64,000 nucleotides of DNA, taken from contig CM026426.1 of NCBI GenBank assembly GCA_014871385.1, positions 19,354,270-19,418,269 of the forward strand, read 5' to 3'. Numbering within the stretch: the stretch's first letter is position 1; each line of letters starts with the position of its first letter. This stretch comes from Ceratodon purpureus. Taxonomy: Eukaryota; Streptophyta; Bryopsida; Pseudoditrichales; Ditrichaceae. A program made the position numbers and the translations under genes. Under the pieces are notes generated by a model. That model saw only the letters and a program-made list of their open reading frames with translations, did not search any database and was not told where the DNA came from. Shown one piece after another: positions 22,171 through 60,002 of the stretch.

Positions 22171-22485
22171 TGTGGCCCAAAACAAAAAATAAAAACCTCA
22201 GTATTGCTGGACGTGCGAACAGAGAGAGCTGCTACAAATGTGTCGTTGCTGGACCTGCGAAGAAGAAGAGCTGCTGAAGACGTTTCACTGCGAACTGAGA
22301 GAGAGACTATTAACCTGTCAGAGAACTGAGAGAGCCGTTGGCCGTTGCAGGGCAGGGCTGTGGCGTGGCAAGGCTGCGGAGGCTGCATGCTATCCAAGAC
22401 CACTCTAAACTCACGGCTCAAACTGGCACGCCAAAAGGCAGGTACCGAGTCCTTTCCCCGAGCCAAGGGTGGGGATGTTGTAATC

Positions 22486-36229: not shown

Positions 36230-39200
36230 GAACCAGATGACTCTGAATCTCCTTCTACAGCCTCTGCGTCGACGAATACAAGGCCCTGGGATCAAAAGTA
36301 GTAGGTCGACTAGGAACATATCTAAGGGCATTAGATTGAAGGGCTTGTGCTAAGTTGTCTACATAGTCCGGAAGTATATAAGGCTGAATCGGACTGGAAT
36401 GAAGACGCCACGATGGAATGGACACGGGTCTTGGCCTACGTGGCGGTGTTGCCGCAACTACTCTGCAAGAGAAAATTGATAGTGGTAAGAATGAGTGGGT
36501 GAAGTGGAATCAACAAAGAAGCAAAGAGAACTAGCCCAGAAGTAAGAAAATGTAAAGTAGAACTTACAATACTTATCTTGTCCTGCTCTCTTTGGAGGTG
36601 CTTCTTCAACTACTGCCAGTCTAGGATGTTTAGGAGGGCCCATGGCGAATGGCGTAGCCATATACGGTTTGAGAAGGTCGTTGAATATGGCTTTGTCCTC
36701 CTCACAAGCTATAATATGACGACCAATACTCTGGGAAGCCTTGATGGACGCACTTGAAACACGTAGCACAAGAAAGAAGTGGGTCTCTGTGGAGAAAACC
36801 AGAGGAATGGAAATGCAGAAACAGTTAATGAAAGATTACCTGTTCCTGCCTTCTACTCAAAGACTATGTCACCGGGCTTGGACAGCTCTCCAATTATGCT
36901 CTGCATCATCTCATGGGCTTTCTCCCTTAGCCCCCTCCATGGTACCTCCCCATTCATTTCCTGCAAATCCACATCGGTGAAGTTGAGAATGGCATCACTC
37001 ACGGTAATGTGGAGGTCGTTGTATATGACATCAGATTTCTGCGTTTGAAAAGTGAACTTGGATGGGGGATGGCCACCACGAATGAAGACGCGCACCCAGA
37101 ACCGAAGAGACTGCGGGACACCACAATATGTGAGTGTAAATAATAAGAAAGTTTAGCAGAATGCAAAGACAAGGAATGATTATGATGTACATACCAAGGA
37201 GCCGGGGATCGTAGGGTGAGCCAAGCCTAGTACATTGAAGCCCCACCAGTCTCGGTGCTGAACAAATACATTAATCTTAGCCTCTTCAGAAATATGCGCA
37301 GCCAGGTCTTGGTCGTTGTTGTGGATTATGCAAAGAGCACCATTATACTGCAAGTAATGTCTTGCAAATTCGAAGAGGTTTTCCACATACTCCTTATCAC
37401 GAGAGTTCCAAGGTGGAATGACGTAGGGGGATTGGATTCCGGAGGGACGGGAAGATTCTCAGGAATGTCAAAAATGATCAAGTCGAATCCCAAGTGATTC
37501 TGATCTTCGCATCTTGGCGGAACTTGATTCTGGCGGCCTGCTCCAAACTAGAGGAAACAAGAAAACATAGTTAGACAGTATAAGATTTACAGTATTGTAC
37601 GTATCGAAGGGAAAGCACTAAGCAACGGATCATACCTTTTGAACGATGTCTAGAGCCTTGTTCCATTCGTGATCGCGACCCATGTCAGAGAGTTCCTTCT
37701 GTCGAAGCAAAACTGAATCCATAGAGGAGTTGATGACATAAACCTGTGTGGAAAGCGGAGTTCCAGCGGAAGAAGTAGTCTGAGCAAACTGCTTGGCCTT
37801 CCTGTGCTCAAGGAGACTTCTGGTGATCTGGAAGCACTGATTGAGGAAGGAGCCGGCGAAGAAGTTGGAGAAGTCTTCGTAACGACATTACCTGGAGAGG
37901 GCTCTGGTGCCTTCTGACCTGACGCAGAAGACTCCACACCAATTTGCTGTTATGTCTCCGACTGAGAACGCAGAGATTTCAGTTCCTTTTCCTCTCCCTC
38001 TCCTCGGTGGAGGAGCAAATGATTGATACTGCTGTCCTTTGTGATCTTCTGCATCATCCACCAAGTCTTCGACCAGTACCTCACCCCCATCATGTAAAGT
38101 CTTGTGGTCGGCCTCTGAGTCAATCGTGAAACCACGAGAACAATCAAGATACCAGCATCCAGCATCCAAGTGAGGAGCTTTGTACCTTTTCAACTGCTGA
38201 GGAGTATAGATACACTGGTCCGAGCTTCTTTGCGTCCAAGTAGTAATGTACTTAGGGAGCTGCTGAACCTTGATGGCCCCCTTTAAAACAAGCTCTTACT
38301 TGAAGTACCTAAGGAAACCAATTTGTAGAAGGTTAGTATGGGAAAGATATAGAGAGCTCATTTTGGAATTTGAATCCGATAAAGGTAAGTAACGTATCGG
38401 TAAGTAACCCGCTTGACAACCTGAGCGGTTTTAGGGAATTTAGCAAAATTGGACTTCTTGTCGAAGACCTTCTCAGCCTTCTTCCCAATGAACATAGGGA
38501 AGGCCTTGTCCCATAACAGAATACGTGAACTCTCCACATAATCGCTTTGCTGTTGGACATCTGGAAATGCCTTCCAATTGATAACGAGGTTCTCCGCCTT
38601 GCATATGTCCTCGACTTCGTTGATGACGGCTTCCTCCAACTGTGATTCAGAATTCAAATCATTAGCAATGAGAATGAATTCAGGAAGGTAAGAAAGGATC
38701 ATGTCATTGGAAAGGTTTTTTATGAAACTATACTCCAGCCCAGAATGATGCCTTGTTCAACCAAGAGTCGAATTCGGTATCCTTGAATTCAGGTGGTAGA
38801 AATCAGTAAGATAGTCCGGAACTCAGAGATGAGTTCCACCACCTCAACCAATGAGCCTAGTATTTGGCCTCAACGGCCGCTGGAACAATCTTCTGGAGCT
38901 TATCGAGTGACATCTCAGGTTTAGGGAAGTCACTAAAATGCCGATTAATCTGCAACAAGTAGAGAAGTTTTAGAAAATATGAATACAAAAATGTTGTAGT
39001 GAAACGAAATACTGAACTCAACCACAGTGAGGGTCTCACTTCATTGACGAAGTCGTCACCATTCTTGGGATTTGCAATTGCCAAGTACTTGGTAAAGTCC
39101 TTCTTCGTAATGGATTTGACCATGTTGTTTGAAGCTGCAGTCATGGCATCCCAAACACCAGTCGCGGTTTGGTCTTCAGTGGCTGTTTTCTCCTTGTAGA

Positions 39201-40949
39201 TTCTGGCAGCTTCGTCAGAAGCAACCACAATTTCTCGCTGGAACATAGAGTTATTTTTTAGTGAGTTTATAAAGCAGTGTAAATCAATTGTCTAATGGAA
39301 GCGTGAGGGAGGCAGAAACAAGTACTCACACGATAAAGAAACGCGATGAAGACTTTGGTTGGCAAGGTAAACCAGGAACAAATAGCTAGTTTGTGATTCA
39401 AAGATAATTGATACTCCTCTGGTGTGAGCAGGTCCTTAAATTCCTCCAATTTCATGACACCAAATGAGCGAATAGAAAAAGTTTTGCCGGAAGATTACTC
39501 TTCACGTGATCATTTTTTGTAGACCTGTACGAATAGACGGTAGTCAATAAAATGCATAAAGTACGAGTTGAAGCAGCGTGCAAGAGGTGTGGACAAAATA
39601 AAGGGAGTTAATTCTTACCAGTTGATGTCGGGCATGGCATGAAGAAGGTTTCCCACATGACCGCGTGCGTCAAGAACAATGCAATGCACAGAGATGTGCC
39701 ACGCTGGATCTTCACTGTGATGGTTGTTGATATGTCTGAACCATGCGGCGAGGCGATGGTTACCTTCCCAGACATAGAACATCTTCCCAGAGAACTCCTT
39801 CCAATCTGAGTCAGCCAATAGCTCATCTTCAAAACTAGCATTCACTTTTTGCCAACAAGGGCTCCACTCAGCCTTGATCTCTTCAGTGACATCGGCTGTC
39901 TTCTCTTCGTGGTAGTACATGGAAATGTACATAACCCGGTCTCCATCTCTATAGCCTTTGACAAACTCAAGCTCGAAATGTTGAACTCCCATTTCTCCTA
40001 CAGGACGCACTTTTGCCATTGAGAGCATCCTAGAAAGGGGCACAAGGATACCCGACTTTGACTTTGGGAGTATTTGGAGGTTGTTGATGACGCCTATGGA
40101 GTCCACTTTGTGCTGTTTGCGATGTCCCAATTCACTGTCCACTGCATTCGTCAAATCAGTAGGACAAGATGGGGCTGACAACATATCCTATGTCTGAGTT
40201 ACCTGCCATAAGTCATACATTTTCAGGCTTCATTCCAAGACAAGGATCGTAAGAAAATAAACAATTATGAAGAATAATAGAACAATTGCATCTTGAACTA
40301 ATACATCTCTTTGAAAACCTAGTCATCAGCAAGAGCAATAAGTAGTACAGAGGCCACTATGTACGTGATGCACGACTATAATACTCCCTAGCATGTCTAT
40401 AGTTCCAATGACGGCGCCTCCTCCAAAATCGCCTGGTCTGTTGGACCGGGCATGGCAGTATCGCCGGAAGGGCGAAGACAATATGGGCAGGCCTCCTCAC
40501 TCTAATAGGCGAGGAAGGAAAAGGTGAAGACGTCGGCGGGATACCAAGTCGTGGAGAAGAAGGCACGTAGCCCGAGGATGTAGGCTCATAGACAAGAGAC
40601 GTAGGCATGTACTGAGGAGAGTGGACCTCGAGAGGTCCACTACCTAAACCTACAGTGTTTCCTAAATGACACCTACAATAGGGCTGATCAAATAAATCCA
40701 AGAGGTCCAAAACATTGATCATAGTGAGTAGGGAACTGATGGACAAGGGTGCATCTCAGAATACTTAGAAGCAGAGGAATAAAGACAATGTCGATTTCCC
40801 AGTCTAGTTTACAAAAAAAATTATAAATAATGAAGGAAGGTTAATCTACTAGAGTATGTTCAAGACAAAAAGCAAATTAGATTAGAGTACCTCAGTTTCT
40901 GAAGGAGTTGGGCCATCAAAGTCACTTGCAGTGATTTGCTCTGTCAACT
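36230..40949 (-). CDS. ParB-like plus DNA methylase (N-4/N-6 type) fusion gene, multi-exon
   Basis: At least ten short coding segments with good splice sites lie on the minus strand. The first recognised exon (40949-40890, ELTEQITASDFDGPTPSETE) is bounded by TTTTGTAG and GAG/GTACTC. Next come a Pro/Arg-rich exon (40746-40365), the ParB-like exon (40187-39619), helical exons (39480-39310, 39246-39060, 38950-38860, 38702-38380), a hydrophilic linker (38300-37900), and QVYVINSSMDSVLLRQKELS (37800-37640). The methylase part (37547-36590) and a Ser/Glu tail (to about 36230) end it. In the methylase part motif IV precedes motif I, the order of beta-type amino-methyltransferases. Frames change at a few points, so it may be a recent pseudogene or my exon limits may be wrong. 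The 5' end may lie at 60441. Confidence 0.6.
36590..37547 (-). CDS. DNA methylase (N-4/N-6-like) region of the fusion gene
   Basis: After acceptor TTTCCTCTAG the minus strand reads HLGFDLIIFDIPENLPVP, the position of motif IV ('fDlIi.DPPY'), followed by a Pro-Pro stretch. Then come KEYVENLFEFARHYLQYNGA with LCIIHN (motif V/VI type), VFVQHRDWWGFNVLGLAHPT, SDVIYNDLHITVSDAILNFT and EVPWRGLREKAHEMMQSIIG. ELSKPGDIVFE leads into motif I, with SASIKASQSIGRHIIACEED and KAIFNDLLKPY (motif II/III type). The order IV-to-I is that of beta-class N4-cytosine or N6-adenine enzymes. The catalytic box is not a plain DPPY, and the frame is not continuous there or at motif I, so activity is doubtful. Confidence 0.55.
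39619..40187 (-). CDS. ParB-like (ParB/sulfiredoxin fold) exon
   Basis: The exon runs from acceptor AGACATAG to donor ACTG/GTAAGA. It encodes KVDSIGVINNLQILPKSKSG, MLSMAKVRPVGEMGVQHFEL, EFVKGYRDGDRVMYISMYYH and, near its end, KMFYVWEGNHRLAAWFRHIN followed by AWHISVHCIVLDARG. The 'v..GnHRlaAw' box with a following beta strand is the signature of the ParB-like nuclease/NTPase fold, as in ParB, sulfiredoxin and phage ParB-methylase fusions. 'P.......QHFELEFVKGYR' fits the 'vr.l.p.e..' start of the domain. The exon is open over all 189 codons. Confidence 0.7.
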
Positions 40950-41049
40950 CCTACAAAACAAACGAAATACAAATTACTAGAATTAAACTGATAACGTCAA
41001 TGATCAAAATGAAGCAAAAGAGTTGCAATCCAATCAAATAATTCCCCAT

Positions 41050-41888
41050 GAGTACAGCCCCTTCTTCCCCCACATTCCACTCCTCCACTCTAATGGCTAT
41101 CAGCGTCGAATGCCTTGAGAATGGGAGCCTTCTCCTTGCGGCAATGGCCATTGGGCATCCCTCCTTCTCCGCTCCTCCTTCTTCCGCCATAATCCCCTCC
41201 TCCTCTCCACCGGCTTTCGCCACTGAATGCCTTGTTAATGAGAGCCTTCTCCCCGCAGCCATGGCCAGTGCACCTCCCTCCTTCTCCGCCCTGCCTTCTT
41301 CCCCCACATTCCCCTCCTCCACTCCAATGGCTTTTGGCACCGAATGCCTTGTGAATGGGAGCCTTCTCCCCGCGGCCATGGCCGTTGTGCATCCCTCCTT
41401 CGCGAGCCCCCCTTCTTCCCCAACATTCCCCTCCCCCCCTCCAATGGCTTTCAGCACCGAATGCCTTGTGAATGAGAGCCTTCTCCCCACGGCCATGGCC
41501 ATTGCACCTCCCTCCTTTGCGAGCCCCCCTTCTTCCCCCACATTCCCCTCCTCCTCTTTAGTGGCTTTCGGCACCGAATGCTTTGTGAATAAGAGCCTTC
41601 TCGACGCGGCCATGGCCACTGCGCCTCCCTCCATCCCCGCCCCCCTTCTTTCGCCATAATCCTCTCTTCCTTACAACCGGCTTCTAGCAGGGAATGCATT
41701 GTGAATGGGAGCCTTCTCCCTAGGGCCATAGCGCTGCCTCCCTCCTTCTCCGCAGTCCCTTCTTCCCCCACATTGTGCTCGTCCACTACAATGGCTTTCG
41801 GCACCGAATGGCTTGTGAGTAGAGCCTTCTACCCGCGGCCATGGCCATTGCGCCTCCCTCCTTCGCGAGCCCCCCGTCCTCCCCCATG
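41050..41888 (-). repeat. 117-bp (39-codon) tandem array, left half, about seven units
   Basis: Landmark GAATGCCTTG recurs at 41108, 41225, 41342, 41459 and 41576, then in altered form at 41693 and about 41807, a strict 117-bp period. Because 117 is a multiple of three, long frames are open on both strands. In the minus frame, the orientation of the flanking gene, the unit reads GRRLPFTRHSVPKAIGVEEG NVGEEG..EKEGG..MAMAA. The array stops at the gypsy element and resumes beyond it at 58563. Confidence 0.9.
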
Positions 41889-44460
41889 TGTGAGTAGTCA
41901 AAGTGCTCTCTATTCCCATTTTTGTCAAAATTCCATTAGTTTAGTCTAATTTTACAATTTTTATGTTAGAAATAACAAAAACTAGATTAGTTAGACCTTT
42001 AATTACTAAATATTTCATTTTTTTCTAATTTCCTTAAAATCCCTAATTTGTAGTGCTCTTATTTCCCTTTAGTGTTTTTTCCCCTTCCGTTTCTAAATTC
42101 TAATTTACCTTTCTATTTTTTTAGTTTTCATTTTCCATTTTCCATTTTCTAATTCTTCGTTAGAACTTGGTTCCATTTTTATTTTATCTTCTTTCTCTTC
42201 CTTATTTTTATCATTATCTATCTTTCTATAATTTAGTTCTATTTTTTATTTTTTTATTTCCTATTTTCTATTTTTTAGTTGCCTGGAACAACTCAAGGCG
42301 GCTGCGTTAATGCAGCCGCCACAATTGACGGAGGGGCGCGCATCTCCAACTGAGCTACGCTAGTGGGCAGGAAAGTAAATTAGAAAAGATAAATTGTGAA
42401 CCGACCGATGAGGATCCTAGCCGAAGCTAGAGAAGTCGTGCCGGTTAGAAGTAGGAAAATTAGTGGTAGTTTAGTCACTTCTGAGATTTTAGTAGGTTAG
42501 TAAGTGGAACTACTGGAGGTCGATGATTCTTTTTGCTTTTAAAATCCCAATTCCCTCTAAACTATGGTAATGGTATTCAAGTAGTTAGTTAGTTGATACA
42601 TTTTTTTTGAATAGTGGAAAAAAGAAATAGTAGTTAGGAACTTAGAAAAAAATAAAATAGAACAAAAAGGAAAAAAAGAAAAAAAGAGATTAGGATGGAG
42701 ATAAGCATGCCATGGGAGAGGACTTAATGTAAGTTGACTATGTACATGGGGTGAGAGGGCAGCGACTCATCACAGGGTGTTAAGTCAATGAAAGGATAAG
42801 CTGCTGAGTCATGAGAGGAGGAGAGTCGAGAGAGTGATTGAGCCGAAAGGGCATGCTGAGAGGGAGGGAGAGGAGAGAGTGTGCTGGGTGACAGCAAGGA
42901 GGCAGTGTATGGGTGGTGATGGAGAAGTTAGGGTGTGAGCTGTGAGTTAGTGAAAAAACAGTAGAGTTAGTTGGTAAGAACTAGAAACAGGTTGCTGGCT
43001 AAAGGAGTTAGTGTGCAGCTAAACGGTTACATGTACTGTGAAGCGATACAAGCTGCATAGGCTGAAGTTAGTGAGAAGTCAAGAGTAGTATGTGTGCAAG
43101 GTAGGAGCGGTGTGTGCTTCTGTTGCTTGCATTGTGAGTGTAGTCGAAAGTGAGAGTGCCAATTAGTAGGATATACGTGACCAGGTGAAAGTTAGTTGAG
43201 TGTAGGGAGGGCAAGAGATAATGATAGTGTGTGACCATCGGAGCTGAAGTGAAGAAGGCTGCGGCGTTTTGTTGGTCGTTGTGGGCAGTAGAATAACAGT
43301 GAAGGAGGTTGATCGAGGTCCGATGAAGGATACGAGGAGTTGAGCAGAAGGTGACGGCACTTGAGAAACCAGCTCCGAGATTCTCGGCGGTGGGGGCTGG
43401 TTCAAGATTCGGCGGTTGCAGGAGAGCTTGCAGTGGTGGTTAACTTGGAGGTCTCGGTGTGACTGAGGCATGGTGACGACGGCTTGAAGGTGTTGCTGTT
43501 GGAGGGCCGAGGCTTGTGCATCGAAAGAAAGGCTCCGAAAAATTCGGTCTGAGTCAAGGAGCTGGGTTGCGGTCGGATGAGGCTGCTTGATGGTTGGAGT
43601 TTTCAGTCGCTCTTCTGCTGGGTGGTTGCTGTTGGTAGCAGGCTTGGAGAATTCATGCCAGAAGGAGCCCTTTGATGAGCTATGAAGATCGGTGGGCTTG
43701 CTGGTTGCAGGCTGGTAAGGTTGGTGGTTTTATTTTTATTTTTTCCTTGGTGGTGATTGGAGCTGCACCGGCTGGTGAGAAGAAGACGACTGTTAGCAGT
43801 AAAGGAGGAGATTCGGCAAGGCTGCAGTCTGCTTGAGCAACAGGTGCTGGCTGTGTTAATTGGTGGTTGTCAATTGTTTATTTTATTTATGTAATTTTTA
43901 GTTCTTTGATTTGGGAATTCTGGATTCTTTTGGGAGTGCTGCTTGGTGTGTGCACCTTTATGTGTTAAATTATGCATCTTTGCACACAAAAAAAAATTTT
44001 AAAAAATTATAAAATTATGTGTTTTGTTTGTGAATTCAATTGAGCCTTATCTTGTTGGAAATTATTGGATGTGAGCTGTAATTCTCTGATTTGGTTGTTT
44101 TGGTTGAATTTGAATGTTACTTTTTACATGTGATTGCACATTAAGATAAGGCATAAAAAATCGGTCACTTTAAGCGTTAAAAATTCTAAATTACAACGTA
44201 AAGTGAATGAGTTAAGATAAAAAGTAATTAAGTAACTTAAACCACTTAGAGTTACTAATTACTTAGGGTTAGTAATTAATTAGAGTTACTAAGGTATTTA
44301 GGGTTCATAATTACTTAAGGTTAGGGTAAATGTGATTTACCTTTTGCCCTAAAAATATTTAATGTGGTAACTTTTACATTTTTACCTTAAGTAACTAAAT
44401 TTTTACTCTAGGATAGTAAGCCAGGGCCAACCATTTAGGGTTGCGCTTTTTTGGTTTACA
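41889..44460 (+). repeat. 5' LTR of the gypsy element
   Basis: The repeat begins TGTGAGTAGTCAAA and ends TTTTTTGGTTTACA. It is nearly identical to 55992-58562. It contains a GC-rich hairpin and tRNA-like blocks at 42277-42370. Open frames in it (for example minus 43163-43471) are duplicated in the other LTR and are not genes. Confidence 0.95.
42277..42370 (-). other. tRNA-like segment in the 5' LTR
   Basis: On the minus strand TAGCTCAGTTGG (42357-42346) is a perfect A-box/D-arm. It is followed by GGCGGCTGC..GCAGCCGCC (42320-42297), a perfect 9-bp hairpin. A 5-bp stem with a 7-base loop follows, AGTTG-TTCCAGG-CAACT (42293-42277), close to a T-arm. The same segment lies in the 3' LTR at about 56380-56473. 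It is not a normal tRNA: the anticodon arm and acceptor stem are not clear. Confidence 0.5.
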
Positions 44461-45674
44461 TATGGTGCGTCTGGCGGGAGTAACTTTTTGTTTGGTTCAT
44501 TACTTGGAAGGTTATATTTTACTGTTGGACTAGTAGATTTAGAGTTTGTAATGTTCTGATTTTATAGATTCTAACATATTTTATGTATTTGAGTGTTTTT
44601 TGAGGTGATTTGGAGGTGTTTGGACTTCATTGAGCCTAGAGTTAAGGATGTTGGGGTGCGATAGGAAGGAGCACGGCATGAGGTAAGTCTTCTTTTAACC
44701 TAGCTTATGGCATTAGGGCTCTTAATCAATTTAGTGATTTTATAAGGGATAGAAATTCGAATTAATACAAGGGTGGAGCCTTGTATTATCTTCCTTACGT
44801 GTAGGATCGATTAGTGGCCAATTAGTTAATCTTGTTTATGGAATTTTGTGCTAATAAGTGATTGGCTGGAGTTGCTTCAAGGTAAGTTTCTCCCTCTTCA
44901 ATTAAATAATTAGGAGAAATTGGCCATAGGACGGGTAGATTTAGTTGTTCTTGGTCTTCATTGACAGTGACAGGTTGGCTGGCGACGCAGTCAGGTGAGC
45001 TTTCTTCAAGGTGTATGTTAAAATTGACAATTCCTAAGGTATTTGGTTATGTTTGACTGTCACGTTCATTGGGAGGAGGTTATAATGACAAAGTTGACCT
45101 CATAGTAATCGTGAAACACGGTGAAATGGATGACACTAAGTTATAAACTTCCCTCATTGATAGAACCCGACTTGCATAGCCAATTGCCACTTAATCGGAT
45201 TTTTGTAACGTGATATATGTTGTTTATCCCCTAGAGAGTAATTCCTCGAGTGCTCTCCAGAAGTGCGGGGAGTGGGGTGATTCCCTGCTGCCGCGGTGGC
45301 AGAGTGCCTTCTGGTTAGTTCTACGGGGTCAGCCTTTCAGCGGTGTTGTACAATGTAGCGTTGGTTTGAGAAGAGACGTGACGGAGTGATTTCCGGACAT
45401 CAATTCTCATTCTGATTGCTGTTTGCTGTTTCCTGCCCTATGCGGCAGTTTGATCACTTAAGTGGCTTGCAGGTTTCTGGTAAATAACCTCCATAATCTT
45501 TTCACGAAATCAGATCTAAGAACTAAGTTGTTGATTAGGTCTTGACTGATTGTGAGGTAATTAGGGATTCGTTTTATCGATAAGTCACGCTTAGGTCACG
45601 TTATCTTCTAGAGGTTTAGCGGAGTAGCATTATAGGTTGTTCATATGGGATGAGCTATCTATTAGAGGAGTTAG

Positions 45675-48502
45675 ATGCATAGATCCACTCGCTCAAAAAC
45701 CCCATCTTTAGCTTCCCCTTTCATACCTAGGCTACTACATTCCAAATCTTCGAAGACTAAGGGGTTTGATTCAATTGGAGGAGAAGTGGAGAATATTGAT
45801 AGCTTAGAAAATCCTATTGGGGAATTTGTGGACGTCAACCAAGGCACAGCTAGTCCACTCCTTAGCCCTACCAGTTCTGACTTTCGAAACAACCAAGACC
45901 TAGGTGGAATTAGACACTTAAATATACCTGGCCCGTCTCTTGTTTCGCCGATGGCTACTGGAGGTGCAGTTCCAGGTGGAGGAAGGCCACCTCCTCCACC
46001 TCCTCCAGCTCCTGCCAATCCCTTGGTTCAACCAAGGGGCTTACCGATTGTGGTATCCGGAGGTTTGCAAGCGGCCCCTATGCCCCCTAACCTCCCCAGT
46101 TTCAGAGGAAGAAAGGATGAAGACCCTTCAATGCATGTGGAGCGCTTCATAGAGTTGCTGACTACTTGCCTTATTTCCGATCACCGCTACTTCTTAGTGT
46201 GGTTTCCTACCACACTTAAAGACTCTGCCTATGAATGGTACCGGGCAAAAGCATGGTAAAGTGGTCTACAAAAGTGCTTAGCTATTTGCCAGTTTCAGCC
46301 CTTTTGAAAAAATTGCACAAAAGTGATGGAAAGATGTAATTGAAGTCAACTTTTTTTGCTAATATGGATTCTCAACTTGTTTTTCTACAACTTGGAAAAG
46401 TTTCGTGCAAAGTAGACACTTTAAAGTTATTGTATGAAGGCTTTAAATCCAAGCAAAGTGAATGCAGTCATTTGGAAAAGTGAACATAACGGTTTAGGGT
46501 TTTGTCCGAAATCACTTTTAATTTCGCGGTGCCCTCTGTATGTTTAAGAGGTATTCTAAAATAGTCAATTCATATACTCATTAATTTGTTTAGCGTTCCA
46601 AAAGTACCGCAAGGATGTTTTTTAAGAGGGTCACTTCCGCGGTACTCTTCGTGCGTTCTTTTTCACCGAACATTGTTTTTTAAATTGATAAAAACATCCT
46701 CTAAAGATAATAGAGGGCCCCAAATGAAGAAATCAAGACTTTGGAAAAGTTCATTTTCATGATTTAGAAGTAGTGGTCAAATTTAGTTTCAATTTAGGAT
46801 GTTCTTTCTATGAAGATGTGTGAAAGATACCTTATGACACCCTAGAAAGTGACTAAAATGCTCAAAAACTACACCAAAATGCTCAAAATCAGCTTTGAGC
46901 TTTAAAAAACAGCACACTTCATATCACTTCTTAGTGATCACATTTTGCACTTTGTGGTCCACTTTACCGTGCTTACATCCTACCGCAACCATGCAGCATC
47001 AACATTTCGAGATTGGGATGAGCTTATGAGGGCTTTCTTGGAGCAGTATAGGCCTGAAGTAGGCCAAAGTGCAGCATTGACTGCCTTGGCAAATTTTAGG
47101 CAAGGAAAGGATGAAGATATCTTATCTTATATCTGTAGATTTGAGCATGTAGTCACTCGCTTTGTAGGTAATTTGCTCACAGATGATACCCTAAGACATT
47201 TTTTCCTTCAAGGTTTTTATCAGGAGAAAACTGTGAGGGAAATCCTTCAAGCTAGGCCTACTACTTTACAAGAGGCTAAAGAGGCTGCTAGGACAGTGGC
47301 AGCAGTTGCTATGGAACACAAGAAGCTTTGGAGGAGGGAAAATGAGAGTATCCCTAGTTTTATCCCCATTCATGCTCGTGACAAGTCAGGCTCAGTGGAA
47401 TCTCTTCCTATCCCTTCAAATTATCCACCGCAGGTGATAGATCCCATTCCTTTGAGTGTTAGAGTTCCTGCATCTCTACCTACCTTGACTTATGAGCCCG
47501 ATTGGCGCCAAGAGATGAAGAAGGAAATTCAAGACGCTCAGAAGGGATTTCAGGAGCAACTTCAACTTCAGATGAGGACTATGACTGATCAGATGGCCTT
47601 GCTGTTGAGAAATCAGAGTTCTAGTGGCCCACCTCCTCAAATTGAGTCTGGTAGACATGCCTCGGGGTCGTGGTGTAATTCTTGTAGGGAAAATGGACAT
47701 ACGATGCAATTTTGCACCATATTCCCTCAACACCCTAACCTTTACCAGCCTCCACACAGAAACCAACAATTTAGTCAGCAACAGGATTCAAGGCCCCCAC
47801 CACGATGGGATATTTGCCATTCTTGTGGAAAACGACATCCTCCTCAATCTTGTTGGATAGAAAATCGAGTGGTGTGTGGAAATTGTGGGGGAAATCATCC
47901 TACTCATTGATATACGTCTAGAGACAAGGTTATTCCGATGAAGCCATTGGTGGGGAATTTTGCACAACAATCTATGGAGAATCAGAGGGGGTCTAGAAAT
48001 CCCCCACATGACAATAACCTTCATCCCCCTAACATGTATTATGATTACAATAATCATAGGCAGAATCACCAACCACCTCAGGGTTTGCAGACTAAGCAAG
48101 GTTTTGTGCCTTTAGGTCAGAATCAAGGCCAGTCTAATCAGGATGCGCGTTTTGCATCCAATACCTTTCTTTCTACCACTGCTACATTGACAGAGATTGG
48201 ATCTCAAGGTGCCCCACAAAGTTCTACTTCGACTCAGTCGCATTTTGTGTCACATGAGCCTGTTATTACACCTGAAGTGACTCATCTTTCACTTCCTGCT
48301 CATGCAGTACTGACACGGGCTCAAAGGGTTAACCAACCTTTTGTAGAACCTGAATCTAAGAGTGTCTCCGATGACTCACTGCACTTATCTGAATTGGACA
48401 ACGTTATTCAGAAGGCTTTCAAAAACACCAGGAAAGCTAACATGAAAGCACCTTCCATTGATCCAGTGATGTTGGATCCCCCGTCCTCTGAAGAAGATGG
48501 AG
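45675..48502 (+). pseudogene. Gag region of the gypsy element (interrupted)
   Basis: The first part encodes a capsid-type retrotransposon gag start with a Pro-rich stretch and RKDEDPSMHVERFIELLTTC. After the 0.7-kb insertion the gag domain continues with FRDWDELMRAFLEQYRPEVG and LSYICRFEHVVTRFVGNLLT. Zinc-knuckle-like pairs (CHSCGKRHPPQSC and CGNCGGNHPTH) follow. This is a fossil of the Ty3/gypsy family, and the region is broken. Confidence 0.85.
46244..46980. mobile_element. Non-autonomous DNA element (MITE-like), 737 bp, nested in gag
   Basis: Inverted ends share GCATGGTAAAGTGG at 46251 and CCACTTTACCGTGC at 46960, extending imperfectly to GG..CC at the edges. TACCG stands directly outside both ends (46239-46243 and 46981-46985) as a likely 5-bp target duplication. 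No protein is encoded. The superfamily is unclear. Confidence 0.75.
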
Positions 48503-49557
48503 TGTAGAAGGACGTGGTATCCGTATTCCTCCGGAAGGCACTTAATTCACACTAAATACCCTCCAAAGTGAACCACTCCGTGTTCGTTCCCACGAAGACC
48601 TATAGTTTTCCTCCTTTTAGATCCTAACGGAAATCACCACCCGTATCCAACCGTATTCCGTCTTTCGGCCGGTTGGCCGAATCCGGTAGTTTTTGCCTCG
48701 TTCCTATTTTCCGGCTTTTTAGACTAGTGGCCGGTTCCCACTGATCCGTCTATCCTTTCAAGTGGCTGGATTTTCCACCGTCCCGTGACTTAAAGTGGCT
48801 GGACACCCCACTGTTCCTATCTACCACCCGAGAAGTGGAGTAATAATCCTTCCGTATGACTAGGTACCGGTCCGGATAACTACTCAGTATCGGTTATGGA
48901 TACGGAAATCATACTACAATGACATCACCTTACGGCTGCACGGTATTCTACTATACTATCTCCCTTCCGGATTGGTTCGCAGTAGGACATCCGGCTTTTA
49001 TCCCATCTACAGGAAGCGACCGGTCCGTTTCCGGATCCCGGTGTACACACCGCTCTCCGTGTCCTTGAGACTACCAGCCCTACTGCAGTACGTCTCTCCT
49101 TCCCTACGGACTCCTTCCGCGACTGGAAACCGTAAACACTCGACGCTTGACACCTCTCCAGTCTCTCCGAGCGCTCTCTAGATTATCCCACTGTTCAACA
49201 CTCCTCCGGAACACTACTGAAGACAATAGTACCAACAAACCATACGGCAACGGACTCGTCAGCAGCCGGTTGACACAACAATTCCAAAGGTATATTCTCA
49301 ATTGCAACAACAAAACGGCGTACAAAACAAGGCCCCGGCCTTGGAAAAACGTCCTGCTTAAATACTAACACTATCGATCCTAAAGCGACCAAGTGGCCCA
49401 CCGAGATCCAGAAATTCCGGATCTTGGATCCGGGAATCCCGGACCGGTGGCCGCCTTCTATTCCTAGTTAGTGCCGCTACCTATCCGGATTGGCAGCCGG
49501 GTGCACTTGAGCCCCATCGTTAGTCGCTGCCATTTTATCCGGTCCTTATCCTAACTT

Positions 49558-50124
49558 CTACTCCTTGTGCTTATCGAAGCGGGGACTGTGCCGGGTTCCA
49601 TCCATCCGTTCCTTCTTCTGTACCTTCTTCAGCCTCTTCAACGAGGGGCCTTCTTCCGGAGCATCAGCTGCCGACGGGTCGCTGGCCTTCCGGGATCGTC
49701 CTGCTTGAACCGCCGGGGATGGAGATCGTGCCGCCACCGGAACTGCGCTCAGATCCACTTGGAGATTTTCCGGAGATCCCTCTACCGGCATAAAGTCTTC
49801 CGGTGGTGGGCCTCGGGCCGGTTCCAGCGGGATGTTTCCGGGGTTAACAGTCTCGATTCCTGCCAAATTGGGCAGAGTGTGCAAACTGCTCAAGGTATCC
49901 GGAATAGGATCCTCCAGCGGCTGTCCTATATCCTGTTGGACTGACCGGATGGTCGACCGTACCGGCGAGGCTGGAGGTGGCACCGGCACCGGTTCCCTGG
50001 GTGGGGCCGGTAGTCTGGGCTCCTCCCGATCTGCCGGTGGCTCTGGTGGTCTTGACGGACCGGCCTTTGCGGCACTGATGATCTCCACCATATTCTTCAT
50101 CTGCACCCAAGTGTCCCTCATCAC
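49558..50124 (-). CDS. Pro-rich second ORF of the nested element
   Basis: This 188-residue frame starts MMRDTWVQMKNMVEIISAAK, has a long Pro/Glu/Arg-rich middle, and ends in a basic stretch (SLKRLKKVQKKERMDG). It lies seven bases beyond the stop of the preceding ORF. No domain is recognised. Confidence 0.35.
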   Translation of the reverse strand: MMRDTWVQMKNMVEIISAAKAGPSRPPEPPADREEPRLPAPPREPVPVPPPASPVRSTIRSVQQDIGQPLEDPIPDTLSSLHTLPNLAGIETVNPGNIPLEPARGPPPEDFMPVEGSPENLQVDLSAVPVAARSPSPAVQAGRSRKASDPSAADAPEEGPSLKRLKKVQKKERMDGTRHSPRFDKHKE

Positions 50125-50130
50125 CTGCGT

Positions 50131-51309
50131 CTAGTCGTGCATGAACGTCACAATCTTCGTTACAGTCGGATCCGGCTGACGGGTCAAGAAGGCTTGGTAA
50201 ACGGCGCACTGATTGGCCACATCCACCGGAAGGGCTAAAGTGGCCTTGATCTCGACGACCGACTGGATGGCTTCGGATGCCCGGTCACGGGCATCACTGT
50301 AATCCTTCTGGGCATCACGCACCTCCTGCTCGAGCTTGTGAATCCTCTCCCGGTACTGCTCTAGCCGGTCCATGTGCTTGGTCTGGAGACTGGCCAAGTC
50401 CCGGTGCTTGCAAAGAATATTCAGGCACTCCTCCAACCGATCCGAACCCGTAAGGGCAATTACCTCCTTAGCCAACCGGCCCTCCGTCTGCCTAGTCGAC
50501 TGTAGGAACCGAGCATACGTCGACACCTGCTCCGAAAGGTTAACTAAGTCCTGGCACGGGTCTCCGGTGTGCTCCGGTGGTCCGGTGGGTTTTTGGACTT
50601 CCGTGTTCAAGGTTCGCTTGGTCGGGGTGGGAGTCCGAGGTGATCCGGACGGCTGTCCCTTCTCTGGGCTAGGACGGGGTCTCTTAGCCGGCGTGGGAGA
50701 GACCTCGATAACATCATCATCATCGTCCTGATCGGACACCTCTTTCGGTTCGGCGTACTGCTGCAGGCTCTTGATTTCATCGTACTCCCGGATCTCCTTA
50801 GGGCTCAACATCCCCCGGTGACGGTAGAGGTGAATGAGGAAAGACGGAAGGCAGGTGGTCTGTTTCTTGGTCTTCCGGAGATTGGCTACCTGCCGGTCGA
50901 CTATCGTCTTTATCATGAGGCCCCAATCTACCGAGAACTCACCGATCATGGCCCCAATGAAAACGGACGCCCACTTGATGGTTATCCGTTTGGGCTTTTC
51001 CGGATGGAAAATAGGGTTCATAAACCCTACGACCCTCCGGGCCTCCGGATCCGTGATGTCATCCAGCTCCCATCCTTCTCTCCGGTCTCCGGGCCCCTTG
51101 ATATACCCCCACACAAACTCCCGGGTCTTCGGTGCTGAGATCTCTCCAGCGTTCTTGAAACCATACGTCTCCCTCCAGAGTTGTGCCGTCCACTGCTCCG
51201 TTTCTCCCCGTATGGTTCCTCGATTTTCGGGATTCTTGACGAGGATATCCTGGGCCGGAATGGAATGTTTCCAACCCCATGCCTTGTCCAGTAGGAGCTC
51301 ACAGCCCAT
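50131..51309 (-). CDS. Plant transposon-protein-like ORF (PF20167-like) in the nested element
   Basis: An open frame of 392 residues begins MGCELLLDKAWGWKHSIPAQ and contains WASVFIGAMIGEFSVDWGLM and KQTTCLPSFLIHLYRHRGML. These resemble the 'putative plant transposon protein' domain found in non-autonomous plant retroelements. A Pro/Ser/Asp-rich linker and a long coiled coil (ERIHKLEQEVRDAQKDYSDA) follow. A second minus-strand frame (50124-49558), rich in Pro and Glu with a basic end, lies directly downstream. Function is unknown. Confidence 0.5.
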   Translation of the reverse strand: MGCELLLDKAWGWKHSIPAQDILVKNPENRGTIRGETEQWTAQLWRETYGFKNAGEISAPKTREFVWGYIKGPGDRREGWELDDITDPEARRVVGFMNPIFHPEKPKRITIKWASVFIGAMIGEFSVDWGLMIKTIVDRQVANLRKTKKQTTCLPSFLIHLYRHRGMLSPKEIREYDEIKSLQQYAEPKEVSDQDDDDDVIEVSPTPAKRPRPSPEKGQPSGSPRTPTPTKRTLNTEVQKPTGPPEHTGDPCQDLVNLSEQVSTYARFLQSTRQTEGRLAKEVIALTGSDRLEECLNILCKHRDLASLQTKHMDRLEQYRERIHKLEQEVRDAQKDYSDARDRASEAIQSVVEIKATLALPVDVANQCAVYQAFLTRQPDPTVTKIVTFMHD

Positions 51310-52020
51310 GGCTTCTAAAGCAGTCCGGAGGAGCTCCTTCTCTCAGTCGTCTACCGGCATCAACGGCATGACCCGTTGTACCCTGAACAACTATCCTTCC
51401 TCCGCCGGTTCCTTCCCCTTTCTACCCATTTTGCTAAGTCCTCCTCACCGTCACTCCGGTAACACCTGCACGCACGATCCTCACCACAATCCCTCACCTA
51501 ACGGAAACACTTCCGTCTCACCGTCTCTCTCTTACCGTCCAACCCTAACTGCGCCCTCCGCCGTGGAACCCAAGGACCCAGCGCGCCACAAAATGACAAA
51601 AGAAAGGAGGAGCACGGCTGCTCTTCCTCCTTTTATACCTGCCCTCACGCCCACCCGTTCGTAGCTCATCATGACGGACGGTCGTAGCCTTTCATCATTG
51701 GACGGTCGCGACCGGCGGCGCTTTAATGGTCGCAGCCATTCTTCCCGCGTGCCTCGTACCTTTCGGTGGTTACCCTTAAGTCTGCGGTGTCAGGGTTCTG
51801 TCACACGGACGGTGCTTCCTCTCCTTCACCACAGACGACCGGATCTCACCCGGCTAACCTTCCGGTTCTCTCTATTTTATTCGGCCAACCGTCTTAACCG
51901 GTTGTTTTACTTATCTAAGTAGTATTTCCGTATTCCTAACAAAATTTTTTTTAAATTTTTATCATTTTCCTACCGGAATTAGTATTCCGGTGTGTAAACC
52001 GTGGAAACCACTTTCCACAT

Positions 52021-53439
52021 GGAGATGAAAATCTTGAGTCACTAGGACCAACTTGGGAGGGGCCACAAATTCCCATTCATGAAGAAGGGGTAAAAGTTCC
52101 TCTATCGATCTCTACCATTAGACCTTATGACCTTTGGGAAGACCTAGATGAGTTAAAGGCTAATATTTCTATAGCCCAAGTTCTCCAGTTGGCACCTTCT
52201 ATGTGCAAAGGATTGAAGAAGAAGAAAACAACATCTAAGAGAGTGAAGGTGAAAACCAACCTAGCTGCTAGAATAGGCACATCTCGGAAGTCTTTGAAGA
52301 AGGTATTTGAGGTTCGAGCAGTGGAGATTGAAGCCACAATTGTGGACAAGGTTTTGCCAAGGGTGTTGGTTGATGGAGGTAGTGGTGTTAACATCATGTC
52401 TCTTCGTACCATGGAGCAGTTAGGGCTAGAAATGACTGGGCCCTCACCCATTGTGATCAACATGGCCAATCAGGCACGAGAGGCACCACTTGGTCAGATT
52501 TCGGGGTGCAAAGTCAGCACGGGAGGGGAAGAATATACACTTACCTTCCAAGTTATTCGAATGCATTCCAACAGGAATTCCTTTCCTTTACTTTTAGGAA
52601 GGCCGTGGTTGAGGGCAGCCAATGCCAAGGTAAATTGGATTGGAGAAAAACCTCATATCATTTATGGTACAGAGGCTAATCTTACCAAAGTCTACATTCA
52701 ACCTACCTATCCTGTGAACTCAGGATTTTCTGGCTCATCTTCAGAGGGTGAAGATCATGTACCACGTGAAGTGATGAAGACTATAGAAGGGGCCAAATTG
52801 GCACTTACCAAAATAGCAAATCCCACGACTTCTTTCCCATTAAGGTGCTTAGGCCCTAGTCTATATGAGTGGGAAGATGATGGTGAACTGTCCACTTGGT
52901 TAGCCGATCACCCCTACACTGAATCTGAGCCCTCCATGGATGTTTTCTTCATGGAAGAACTTGAGTATGGTCCATGCGGTGACATCAATTTAGCTATTCT
53001 TGTAGATGACATTTCCTACAAGGATGTATGTGAGGTTACATTGGATGGCACACAATTATCTACTCTAGAGTCCATCTTGGATGAAGAGGCTCTCATTTCG
53101 CCACTTCATTTCAGAACCACTGCATCAGGGTTACAAGTAGGAAATGATTTACCCATTTACCCTCCAATTCCTAATGATTGGTATAAGGGTCCAACGGAAC
53201 AACCACATGCTAGCCCAACTGATTGGCAAGAGATGGATATTTCATTTGAAGGTGAAGAACCACGAATGATCAAGGTTGGGAAGCAACTTACGAAGGAGGA
53301 ATTAGAACCTTATAGAGCCTTGGTCATGGAGTATCGTGACATCTTTGCTTGGTCCTATAAGGAACTCAAGGGCATTCCTCTAGAGGTAGTACAACACCAC
53401 ATTCCTTTGATCCCTGGTTCAATTCCCATTTGGCTATGA
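52021..53439 (+). pseudogene. Gypsy protease region
   Basis: The frame holds an aspartic protease core, VLVDGGSGVNIMSLRTMEQL with LLLGRPWLRAANAKVNW, followed by a linker toward reverse transcriptase (KEELEPYRALVMEYRDIFAW). It belongs to the surrounding Ty3/gypsy element and is a fossil. Confidence 0.88.
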
Positions 53440-54568
53440 ACTTTATACTTTCATCGGTGGTTATTCAGGTTATAACCAGATCTCCATCAAACCTGAGGAC
53501 TACCACAAGACAGCCTTTACTACTCCTTCGGGCACCTTCATTTATGTAGTCATGCCATTCAGATTGTGCAATGCACCAGCAACTTTCCAAAGGGCTATGA
53601 CTTATGCCTATCCTGACCTTCTACACACATCTATGACGCTGTTCATAGATGATTTCAGTACCCAATCCTTAATAGAGGAGCATTTGGCATGTGTTAGAGA
53701 AATTTTTGAGCGATGTAGAAGAGTTGGCATAGCTCTTAACCCAGACAAAATCTTTTTAGCGGTTTTAAGGGGTGTTTTGTTAGGCTATGTGGTCTCTAAA
53801 GCTGGAAGAGAGCCAGATCCTGAGAAGGTCAAGGTGATAACTAACTTACCTCCACCTACAGATGTTAAAGTGGTTCAAAGGACTCTTGGACACTTGGGTT
53901 GGTATCGAGAATTGATCCCAGATTATGCCACAATTTCCATGCCAATCAATTGCTTGCAACAGAAGGCAGTGAAGTTTGAGTGGATTCCAGAATGCCAGGA
54001 GGCATTAGACACCCTCAAAACCAAAGTCAGTACCTTCCCAGTCTTGAAACCTCCGGATTGGAATTTGCCTTTTCACATTTATTGTGATGCTTCTTCCACA
54101 GCTGTTGGAAGTGCATTGTGTCAGCCAACAGGAGAGAAGGGGAGAGATTATCTTGTAGCATTTGCCAGCCGCCAGTTGAATCCAGCTGAGAAAAACTACA
54201 CTACCACTGAGAGAGAGTGTTTGGCCATGGTGTTCTCTTTGAAGAAGTTCCGCCATTATCTGCTACTAAACAAAGTAGTCTTCTTTGTGGACCACATGGC
54301 TATCAAGTACTTGGTGAACAAACCAGAACTCAGTGGTAGGCTTGCTCGATGGGTGCTCTTATTAGAAGAGTTTGACTACACCGTGGAGTACAAACCAGGG
54401 AAGAGACATTTACAGGCAGATCATCTATCTAGGATACCGGGAGAGCCAACCATCACCCCCATTGATGACAAATTGATAGATGAAGATCTTTTCTTGGTTT
54501 CATCTTCTCAACTTGGTACCAAAACATTGCGGAGTTTCTTCAAACTCAGCAAATGCCTGCTAACTTGA
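53440..54568 (+). pseudogene. Gypsy reverse transcriptase and RNase H region
   Basis: MPFRLCNAPATFQRAM, a YIDD-like LFIDDF, and LGHLGWYRELIPDYA show the second half of reverse transcriptase. FHIYCDASSTAVGSALCQ, TTTERECLAMVFSLKKFRHY and GKRHLQADHLSR show RNase H. The region is broken, and the N-terminal part of the polymerase domain is not all present. Confidence 0.9.
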
Positions 54569-55398
54569 GTAAGAATGATCGAGGGAAGGTGCGCATTAAT
54601 AGTCGCCATTTTGCCATCATCGGTAATCGTTTATACCGTCGTGGAGTGGATGACATCCTCCGGAGATGCGTGAATTCCACTATGATACCCACCATTTTGG
54701 CTTCTTGTCATGATAGTGCTTGTGGAGGGCACTTTTCTGGCACCTTGACGGGCCGGAAGGCTTTACGGGCTGGTTACTATTGGCCTACTATGTTTCGAGA
54801 TGCCCATGATTACACCAAACGTTGTGATGCTTGCCAACGTTAGGCACGCAATGACCTTCGAATGGAGATGCCTCTTCATGTCTCTCTTCCTTTAGTTCCA
54901 TTTGAAAAATGGGGGATAGACTACATTGGAGAGGTTCATCCCCATTCTAGCAAAGGGATGAAACATATCGTGGTAGCTACGGAATACCTCACCAAATGGG
55001 CAGATGCCAAGGCTGTGAAGACCAACGATGCCAAGAGTGCTGCAACATTCTTGTTTGAACACGTGATCACACGTTTTGGATGTCCTAAGATCCTCATTAG
55101 TGATCGAGGTAAACACTTCCTCAATGAAGTCATTGAAAACTTGACTTCTCGGTTTCAGATTGACCACAGGAAAACCACTCCCTACCACCCTCAAACTAAT
55201 GGCCACACACAAAGAGTCAACCAAAGCTTGGCGACCATTTTGAGGAAAACCATTATAGATTCCAAACGAGATTGGGATGTCAAACTTCCTGCTGCGTTAT
55301 GGGCCTATAGAACTACGTTCAAAGTGACCACACTGGCTACTCCTTTCTCTTTGGTTTATGGAGTTGAAGCCGTTTTACCCATCGAATTCGAAGTTTAG
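54553..55398 (+). pseudogene. Gypsy integrase region
   Basis: The zinc-binding HHCC type segment (CHDSACGGHFSGT..CDACQR) precedes an integrase core with EKWGIDYIGEVHPHS, ISDRGKHFLNEVIENL and YHPQTNGHTQRVNQSLATIL. No chromodomain was seen. The region is broken and is a fossil. Confidence 0.92.
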
Positions 55399-55991
55399 TT
55401 CACCTTTCCCGTGACAATCTGGACAAATCAAGGAGACATGAACCTCATCTTTCATTTAGTGCCTTTGTCCACTATCTGATGGTTCATTTTTTAATGCTAG
55501 TCCAAAACCCTATCATTTATTAGTGAAGCACTAACATTCTCTTTTCATAGTCACTTTTCCATTTAGAAACTAATCTTTCCATTATTTACCTTCTTACCTT
55601 CCAACTAGTTGAAATTACTATCTTTCTGGAGTCCAAATTCACTCTGATGAAGGAGGAAGGTGGTTTTGAAAACTTTTTTGGCTATAGATTCAAACTGGTT
55701 CCGTCCAGGGAGAATGTGGGTATAACATTAAGCCTAGAAGCTAACTTTGAACTTCTAATTTTCCAATTTCTCTTTAATAATAGCGTCTAAACTACTTATA
55801 CTTCCAATTTATAGCTTACATTTTCCTTCTCCAATTCACTCAACTCTTCCTCTACAATTCTAAATACTACCTCTCTAATAACTCTTCTATTTTTTATCTT
55901 TTTATTTTTGAGAACTTTCTAGTCACTTGCCTACAAGCAAGAAGATCTAGAATCTCTCTCCTCTAACCAGTCCGCCATCATGGTCGCCATT
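55399..55991 (+). other. 3' internal region of the gypsy element
   Basis: It is noncoding and AT-rich. A purine stretch GGGAGAA directly followed by TGTGGGTATAACA at 55714 looks like a polypurine tract with an LTR start, so the 3' LTR may really begin there. The 5' repeat would then be shorter than the 3' repeat. Confidence 0.5.
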
Positions 55992-58562: not shown

Positions 58563-58815
58563 CTCGACATTCCCTTTCTCCTCTCGACGGGCTTTCGGTA
58601 CCCAATGCCTTGTGAATAAGGGCCTTTTCTCTGAGGCCATGGCCACTGCGCCTCCCTCCTTCTCCGCCCGCCCTTCTTCCCCTACATCCCCTCATGGTCT
58701 CCACTGGCTTTCATCACCGAATGCCTTGTGAATGGGAGCCTTCTTGACACGGCCATGGTCATTGCGCCTCCCTCCTTCTCTGCCCCCCCTGCTTCCTCCA
58801 CATTCCCCTCCACTT
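58563..58815 (-). repeat. 117-bp (39-codon) tandem array, right half
   Basis: Two to three units with AATGCCTTGTGAAT landmarks at about 58603 and 58720 continue the array of 41050-41888 beyond the gypsy element, in the same orientation. The units are more diverged toward the right and merge into the coding-like segment ending at 59208. Confidence 0.85.
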
Positions 58816-59840: not shown

Positions 59841-60002
59841 TTCAGGTCCCATATTCTAAACAATCATTCGGGCTGATGCGGCATCATAATTCTAAAAAGT
59901 AAAAAAGAATAACCGCAACAAAGACATTACATTTAACTTAATAAAATAGACCCCACGAAAAGACATAATTTACATTTAGCATACTTGATTATGAAACTTA
60001 CC

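Follow-up and report, generated by a model that had tools for sequence, protein, structure and literature searches.

A decayed spliced gene of Ceratodon purpureus with remote likeness to amino-methyltransferases and a putative ParB-like first exon

Introduction

Does a plant nuclear genome carry a gene in which a ParB-like domain precedes a DNA amino-methylase, and if so, to whom did the gene belong? The question was raised by a first-pass annotation of a stretch of 64,000 nucleotides from Ceratodon purpureus (GCA_014871385.1, contig CM026426.1, positions 19,354,270 to 19,418,269), referred to here as the window. The pairing had been regarded as unusual for a plant nucleus. For eukaryotes as a whole it is not new: precedents exist, the combination having already been published as cargo of algal transposons (available text of PMC12477816). 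The locus is tentatively read as a decayed, intron-rich eukaryotic gene with a C-terminal part descended from a permuted N4/N6 amino-methyltransferase, a first exon that is probably ParB-like and, most likely, a past as cargo of a DNA transposon; taken as a whole, this reading has a little under an even chance of being right.

Gene structure

The minus strand from 40184 to 36255 reads as a spliced gene of ten exons and nine GT–AG introns of 53–112 nt (Table 1), with an exon total of 3116 bases (about 1038 codons) in its decayed state. The intron ends alone are not independent evidence, because the introns were placed by searching for such sites. The earlier proposal of one spliced gene of eukaryotic type is supported by the exon chain, by the phase, which agrees at eight of the nine exon junctions (seven of eight without the last one, the acceptor of which was chosen for phase), and by a GC content of 47.1% in exons versus 36.5% in introns (38% in exon E2). 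The chain would encode a single polypeptide. The peptides quoted in the annotation were all recovered on the minus strand: WEGNHRLAAW within 39618–40187, FDLIIFDIPEN in M1, GDIVFE followed by a TAG in M2 and IGRHIIACEED in M3.

At least five lesions (frame breaks and in-frame stops) are distributed across the gene, and motif I, the AdoMet loop, is itself interrupted by a stop. The copy is therefore dead and cannot work, as had been suspected from its broken frames.

Table 1. Features of the locus and of its upstream flank (window positions)
Feature	Positions	Strand	Remarks
Exon E1 (putative ParB-like domain); 188 full codons, counted from the first ATG	39619..40184	-	Open frame, donor GTAAGA; no profile match
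Exon E2, internal frame break	39330..39524	-	Acceptor TACAG, donor GTGAGT; start in phase with E1 and end with E3, in different frames
Exon E3, open	39040..39237	-	CAG / GTGAGA; frame 0 stop-free
Exon E4, two in-frame stops	38734..38949	-	GCAG / GTATAG; 94-nt intron next
Exon E5, open	38421..38639	-	ACAG / GTTGTC
Exon E6, linker region (basic RGRG, Ser/Pro-rich) with one or more frame changes	37636..38308	-	TTAG / GTATGA; phase mismatch with E5
Exon M1, methylase motif IV site (DIPE, 37469-37458) and the strand/helix after it; internal frame break	37195..37547	-	CTAG / GTATGT; motif IV placed by eye and forced global alignment
Exon M2, helix and motif I site (GDIVFE-stop-KAGT, 36873-36841; TAG 36855-36853)	36840..37110	-	GCAG / GTAATC
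Exon M3, strand after motif I (IGRHIIACEED)	36568..36786	-	ACAG / GTAAGT; M2 phase kept
Exon C1, Pro/Arg-rich tail ending in stop codon	36255..36460	-	M3 phase kept if second of two adjacent acceptors used
Possible upstream coding exon	40891..40950	-	20-codon frame bounded by AG ... GT
117-bp tandem array upstream of gene, 7.1 copies	41058..41886	.	Further copies 58567-58811
Ty3-type LTR retrotransposon between the two array parts	41887..58562	+	LTRs 99.8% identical

Methylase half

The methylase chain was compared with a profile of ParB–methylase fusions using hhalign and scored 37.0, a value reached by none of 300 shuffles (best 35.4) and by none of 61 other open reading frames of the window (best 21.3). 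The chain has two PHROGs families among the matches listed, both of them DNA methylases ('DNA methyltransferase', E = 0.0032 and 0.0067). A tblastn search of the methylase part against phage and plasmid sequences gave nothing significant (E values of 0.3 to 10); the places matched were annotated as DNA methylase in 17 of the best 20 of 23 phage cases and in 14 of 16 plasmid cases. Pfam N6_N4_Mtase (PF01555) matched the M2–M3 part with 12.4 bits (E = 0.15, curated cut-off 26.7) and MTS matched a piece of M1 (E = 0.012, likewise under its cut-off). The methylase claim of the first-pass annotation thus holds as a remote likeness beyond chance, but falls short of a Pfam assignment.

The local hhalign alignment (P = 1e-4, Prob 57%) comprised 59 columns at the motif I end only, and M2 was the strongest single piece (score 27.1), whereas the M1 pieces alone, with 14.2 and 12.1, were at the level of shuffles, which averaged 14.9. 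In the global alignment the motif sites followed the correct order, but confidence was low (P = 0.0015, Prob 6.8%). The permuted order, motif IV before motif I, fits by eye and by this alignment, with the M1 pieces at shuffle level. Separation by hmmsearch was poor, the methylase model giving 3.0 bits for the methylase chain versus 2.5 for the ParB exon. Judged from the letters, the C-terminal part appears to be a remote amino-methylase relative, supported mainly by the motif I end and weakly in each single test.

The catalytic motif IV of amino-methyltransferases is (D/N/S)PP(Y/F/W), and DPPY was seen in the methylase relatives retrieved. The motif is absent here, DIPE standing in its place, in agreement with the departure from DPPY noted earlier. 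DIPE hints that the role may be a non-catalytic one.

First exon

Exon E1 contains GNHR (39764–39753), a GxxR sequence resembling box II (the P motif) and weak when taken alone; GxxR in box II is a ParB-CTPase motif (available text of PMC12704722). The annotation had assigned a ParB fold to 39619–40187 and had itself named the lack of a significant match as grounds for refuting it; no match was obtained with any profile tried, which leaves the GxxR box and its place before the methylase. The ParB family (PF02195) was absent at E ≤ 10 from Pfam searches of single exons and joined chains, PHROGs returned only families of unknown function (E = 0.027 and 0.17) and a PDB sequence search gave no ParB match. 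Two home-made profiles, built from 15 and from 92 ParB domains of fusion proteins, produced no hmmsearch score for E1, and hhalign against the ParB profile gave P = 0.15 with the alignment at the wrong place. For the larger profile, three of 95 proteins (L119, L139 and L150), in which the pattern found no box or PPY, were left out. A strict box pattern was found in none of the 92 fusion ParB domains and in 18 of 100,000 shuffles of E1; a loose one was found in 92 of 92, but also in 1818 of 100,000 shuffles.

How far such nulls weigh was judged from seven undoubted bacterial ParB–methylase fusions: two pass the ParB_N cut-off and one has no match at E ≤ 0.001, so that an absent ParB match does not weigh strongly against a ParB domain. 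Among the bacterial matches listed, 15 of 18 regions are ParB–N6_N4 fusions with the same N-to-C order, a proportion that is not a frequency because the regions were picked by frame length. Their ParB part was recognized by eye and pattern; the Pfam check, confined to seven, found N6_N4 in all seven and ParB_N in six at E ≤ 0.001. The same check of phage methylases H2, H7 and H16 found no ParB part.

In the available text of PMC12704722, phage and bacterial proteins combine a ParB-CTPase fold with an N6_N4 methyltransferase. Such fusions, with loci L081–L091, L093–L096 and L099–L178 as examples, share with the present gene the GxxR box and, if its parts are read correctly, the order of ParB before a permuted methylase. 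The gene described here differs in being about twice as long, in being spliced and in having DIPE for DPPY, and its likeness to them is remote.

The methylase part may be real and the first exon an unrelated domain with GNHR present by chance, a reading that we consider rather unlikely and the strongest of the alternatives. It is favoured by the profile results, by one phage tblastn match of E1 (E = 6, hypothetical proteins) and by fold searches: two single-sequence structure models were weak (mean pLDDT 41.8 and 52.0), searches with the second returned nothing significant, and none of the best 50 of 75 PDB and the best 50 of 281 viral fold matches carried the name ParB, many of the viral ones being unnamed. 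Against it stand the strand–GxxR–helix box N-terminal to the methylase, the poor ParB_N scores of true fusions and the algal transposons, in which the pairing is known (available text of PMC12477816). A ParB-like domain is probable for the first exon, short of proof.

Transposon surroundings

Pfam matches in the window include Plant_tran (4.9e-79), Transposase_21 (1.7e-57) and DUF4218 (5.4e-25), together with Ty3-type reverse transcriptase, RNase H and integrase. The LTR retrotransposon upstream of the gene is probably a recent insertion, as its LTRs are 99.8% identical.

Inverted 11-base seeds between 28.0–36.3 and 40.1–62.0 kb gave no convincing enclosing ends; the best inverted pair (16 bases) has its partner inside the LTR element. 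CACTA-type ends gave nine loose pairs that surround the gene, and a duplication of 2 or 3 bases accompanies none of them. No ends were found in the last 140 bases, for which one of five shuffles gave one, and a further search, confined to 16.0–36.3 kb, is silent on enclosing ends. An element end may lie beyond the window. A second copy of the gene was not found within the window by tblastn. A plus-strand gene at 61020–63870, transposase-like by eye, was considered as a head-to-head partner; it had no Pfam match and the partnership is unsupported, as are N-terminal exons considered at 59.3–60.3 kb.

The closest precedent by description is the brown-algal (Ectocarpus) Sola-1 transposon Sola1-1_Ec32, the 1104-residue accessory protein of which is ParB-like with a methyltransferase; green and red algal cases are cited in the same source (available text of PMC12477816). 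These proteins and the gene as read here have in common a ParB-like part with an N4C/N6A methyltransferase, a length of about 1000 residues and a setting in transposon DNA. In the present case the ParB part is putative, the copy is broken, the host is plant-like, no transposon ends or transposase are tied to the gene, and the likeness is one of description rather than of letters. No land-plant report of the pairing stood among the literature matches listed; PMC3671162, considered as one, matches only by 'Parbu' in its available text. The suggestion of a selfish element remains a reasonable guess, given the transposon-filled setting and the algal precedent, but no enclosing ends were found.

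Origin of the gene

Cargo of a DNA transposon is the likeliest reading on this analysis. The gene may instead be a pseudogene of a host DNA methylase, domesticated or horizontally acquired: no element ends were found, and eukaryotic hosts have co-opted bacterial amino-methylases. The available text of PMC8885841 describes N4CMT of bdelloid rotifers, which resembles the present gene, as read here, in being an intron-containing eukaryotic gene for a permuted amino-methylase of bacterial type, and mentions a liverwort case; N4CMT differs in having a chromodomain and in working as a host gene, and the term ParB is absent from that text. The transposon neighbours, the heavy decay and the algal precedent speak against a host pseudogene, which we judge unlikely.

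Neither domain would be real if this were an unrelated decayed gene or transposable-element gene that resembles the motifs by chance. The gene's Pfam scores all fall below the respective gathering cut-offs, the tblastn E values are high (0.3 to 10) and the best of the 300 shuffles comes close to the real hhalign score. The shuffle and other-frame controls argue the other way, as do the DNA methylases that make up both PHROGs families and nearly all annotated tblastn places listed, and such an origin is improbable.

ParB–methylase fusions look common in viral contigs, in which 593 of 600 candidate stretches among the matches listed match the fusion alignment by tblastn. No relative came to light in viral contigs, whether E1, the methylase chain or the middle exons served as query, nor in prokaryote genome contigs scanned with E1; such scans reach close relatives only, because short exact peptides are needed. 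Descent from an integrated DNA virus with a ParB–methylase is scarcely credible in view of the nine spliceosomal-type introns, the nameable neighbours, which are transposons, and the viral contig scans.

On the preferred reading, the C-terminal third of the gene descends from an N4/N6 amino-methyltransferase of permuted type, with motif IV ahead of motif I, and the gene was most likely carried by a DNA transposon like those known from algae. The ParB-like part of an intact relative would attach to DNA, perhaps together with a nucleotide, and so hold the methylase on the element, where it would write N4-methylcytosine or N6-methyladenine and might thereby affect silencing or movement of the element. 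That a family of plant nuclear DNA transposons encodes such a self-marking protein (4mC or 6mA on itself), with this locus as a dead member, is a speculative extension and on balance unlikely.

The present value of the locus is as a pointer to where to look, since the copy is broken, its ParB half is putative and the pairing is already published. Intact plant relatives, if they exist, would show that this class of transposon accessory proteins, so far algal, reaches a new host group, and would offer a testable source for the disputed 6mA and 4mC signals in plant DNA.

Gene structure and state of the copy

The locus looks like a genuine spliced gene that is now dead, and one part of it is remotely related to amino-methylases. 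Ten exons on the minus strand (40184-36255; 3116 exon bases in total) read as a spliced gene, as the first-pass annotation had claimed: E1 (putative ParB exon), E2-E6, M1-M3 (methylase exons) and C1 (tail). GC content is 36.5% in the nine introns (53-112 nt) versus 47.1% in the exons. All introns run GT...AG, which is not independent evidence because splice sites were assigned by seeking GT/AG at frame ends. Exon phase, counted from the gene model, is kept at 8/9 junctions, the misfit being E5-E6; at the last junction the second of two adjacent acceptors was picked for keeping phase. Because the introns leave no space for an intergenic gap, the sequence favours a single gene from E1 to C1.

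Frame breaks were found within E2 and M1, two in-frame stops in E4 and a TAG within motif I in M2. With at least five faults, not counting E6 (at least one frame change), the copy is a pseudogene, and the broken frames first suspected are borne out.

Methylase half

In single-exon searches one M1 piece matched MTS (Pfam, E = 0.012) and M2 alone a PHROGs methyltransferase (E = 0.46). The joined methylase chain (281 letters, X placed at breaks) gave MTS (E = 0.072) and N6_N4_Mtase (E = 0.15) in Pfam, both below the cut-offs; dividing the latter value by 24,736 models gives, by our own calculation, about 6e-6 per model for a family named beforehand. The sole PHROGs families listed were two of DNA methyltransferases (E = 0.0032 and 0.0067). 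No significant match to phage or plasmid sequences was obtained with tblastn; DNA methylase was annotated at 17 of 20 phage places among the matches listed (23 in all) and at 14 of 16 plasmid places, many of these records being near copies of each other. The remaining places listed lacked annotation or were of unknown function.

Bacterial ParB-N6_N4 fusions were gathered from 15 of 18 regions, chosen by frame length; Pfam (E <= 0.001) found N6_N4_Mtase in 7/7 and ParB_N in 6/7 of those searched. Together with 80 viral fusion loci, profiles were built from 92 of 95 proteins. These models were not discriminating in hmmsearch: with the 15-member model, 2000 shuffles yielded 1065 scores, 10 of which reached that of the real chain; with the 92-member model, 3000 shuffles yielded 1727 scores, of which 5 did so, and this model gave the chain 3.0 bits versus 2.5 for the ParB exon. 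For the chain, hhalign separated better. The local alignment to the fusion profile scored 37.0 (P = 1e-4, Prob 57%), reached by 0/300 shuffles (best 35.4, mean 14.9); the highest score among 61 other ORFs (at least 130 aa) in the window was 21.3. The match covers 59 columns in M2-M3, at the motif I end. Searched separately, M2 scored 27.1, M3 17.5 and two M1 pieces 14.2 and 12.1, the last two no better than shuffles, which weighs slightly against the favoured reading.

In a global hhalign alignment (P = 0.0015, Prob 6.8%) DIPE falls on DPPY and GALCII on the strand corresponding to it; GDIVFE-KAGT is set against the AdoMet loop and IGRHIIACEED against the strand after that loop. Column confidence is low. 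This order fits the proposed motif IV before motif I, but the shuffle-like M1 scores do not strengthen it. Of the proposed N4/N6 methylase there stands a remote homology of the C-terminal half to amino-methylases, for which the case is good at the motif I end and plausible at the motif IV end; the family assignment itself stayed below cut-off. The catalytic motif is lost or changed.

Putative ParB half

The ParB fold proposed for E1 was not recovered: Pfam listed no ParB family, PHROGs only families of unknown function, a PDB sequence search gave no ParB match and our fusion ParB profiles gave no hmmsearch score. With hhalign the ParB profile aligned at the wrong place (P = 0.15), and tblastn returned one phage match (E = 6), to hypothetical proteins. 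Two AlphaFold2 models could be made without an alignment, but mean pLDDT was 41.8 and 52.0, and the second gave no significant match in a fold search.

FYVWEGNHRLAA is the sole match to the box pattern in 121,661 six-frame residues, the pattern having been written after seeing the peptide. When slightly widened, the pattern occurred in 18 of 100,000 E1 shuffles and in none of the 92 ParB domains from fusions; a loose one matched all 92, but also 1818 of 100,000 shuffles. ParB_N is an insensitive model (among seven undoubted fusions, two above cut-off and one without a match at E <= 0.001), which lends slight weight to ParB. E1 carries, N-terminal to the methylase, a GxxR box, the P motif of PMC12704722; this putative arrangement is a lead that has passed no test. 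The ParB part, matching no profile run, is plausible because of its position and the precedent below.

Origin and surroundings

Transposon cargo is the likeliest origin of the gene, as yet unproven. The Ectocarpus paper (PMC12477816) offers a precedent for the ParB-methylase pairing, and a bacterial amino-methylase is described in bdelloid rotifers (PMC8885841). No land-plant case appeared among the papers listed in literature searches of far from complete coverage. In viral contigs the ParB-N6_N4 fusion seems to be very frequent: the fusion alignment was matched by at least 593 of 600 candidate stretches, of which 80 loci were kept (L099-L178).

The window is transposon-rich. It counts as plant DNA by its gene style and by transposon families that carry plant names. 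No inverted ends enclosing the methylase gene were found in it.

Features around the methylase gene
Feature	Position	Strand	Evidence or remark
Transposase-associated domain	5956-6537	minus	PF13963, E = 3.4e-6; 27.6 bits, cut-off 27.7
DUF3504 likeness	14152-14628	plus	E = 0.032, below cut-off
NAM-associated ORF	18878-19771	plus	E = 3.6e-5, slightly below cut-off
PIF/Harbinger-type transposase	20890-22197 (20.9-22.2 kb)	minus	Plant_tran 4.9e-79
CACTA-type ORFs	23.2-28.8 kb	same as gene	Transposase_21 1.7e-57; DUF4218 5.4e-25; DUF4216 0.0047 (below cut-off)
Possible additional exon	40950-40891	minus	candidate; possibly joined to E1
117-bp (39-codon) tandem unit	41058-41886 and 58567-58811	both	several open frames; flanks LTR element either side
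Ty3-type LTR retrotransposon	41887-58562	plus	LTRs ~2.58 kb, 99.8% identical
403-aa open frame	50134-51342	minus	between gag and protease/RT frames of Ty3-type element
Coding-looking exons	59300-60270	minus	start near 60.26 kb, donor gtaag; no Pfam match
Long frame	61020-63870	plus	three in-frame stops; no Pfam match

The Ty3-type element is probably young; by eye the 117-bp register continues across it, and a search for an exact target duplication of 4-6 bases gave none. The exons beyond this insertion lie on the strand of the ParB-methylase gene and may encode its N-terminal part or belong to a different gene. The NAM-associated and Plant_tran ORFs are convergent, a PIF/Harbinger-like pair, and the PF13963 region is perhaps a second CACTA-type element. 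DUF3504 is related to tyrosine recombinases (Crypton-type). The long frame holds peptides that we take, by eye, to be zinc-finger-like and DDE/CxxH-like.
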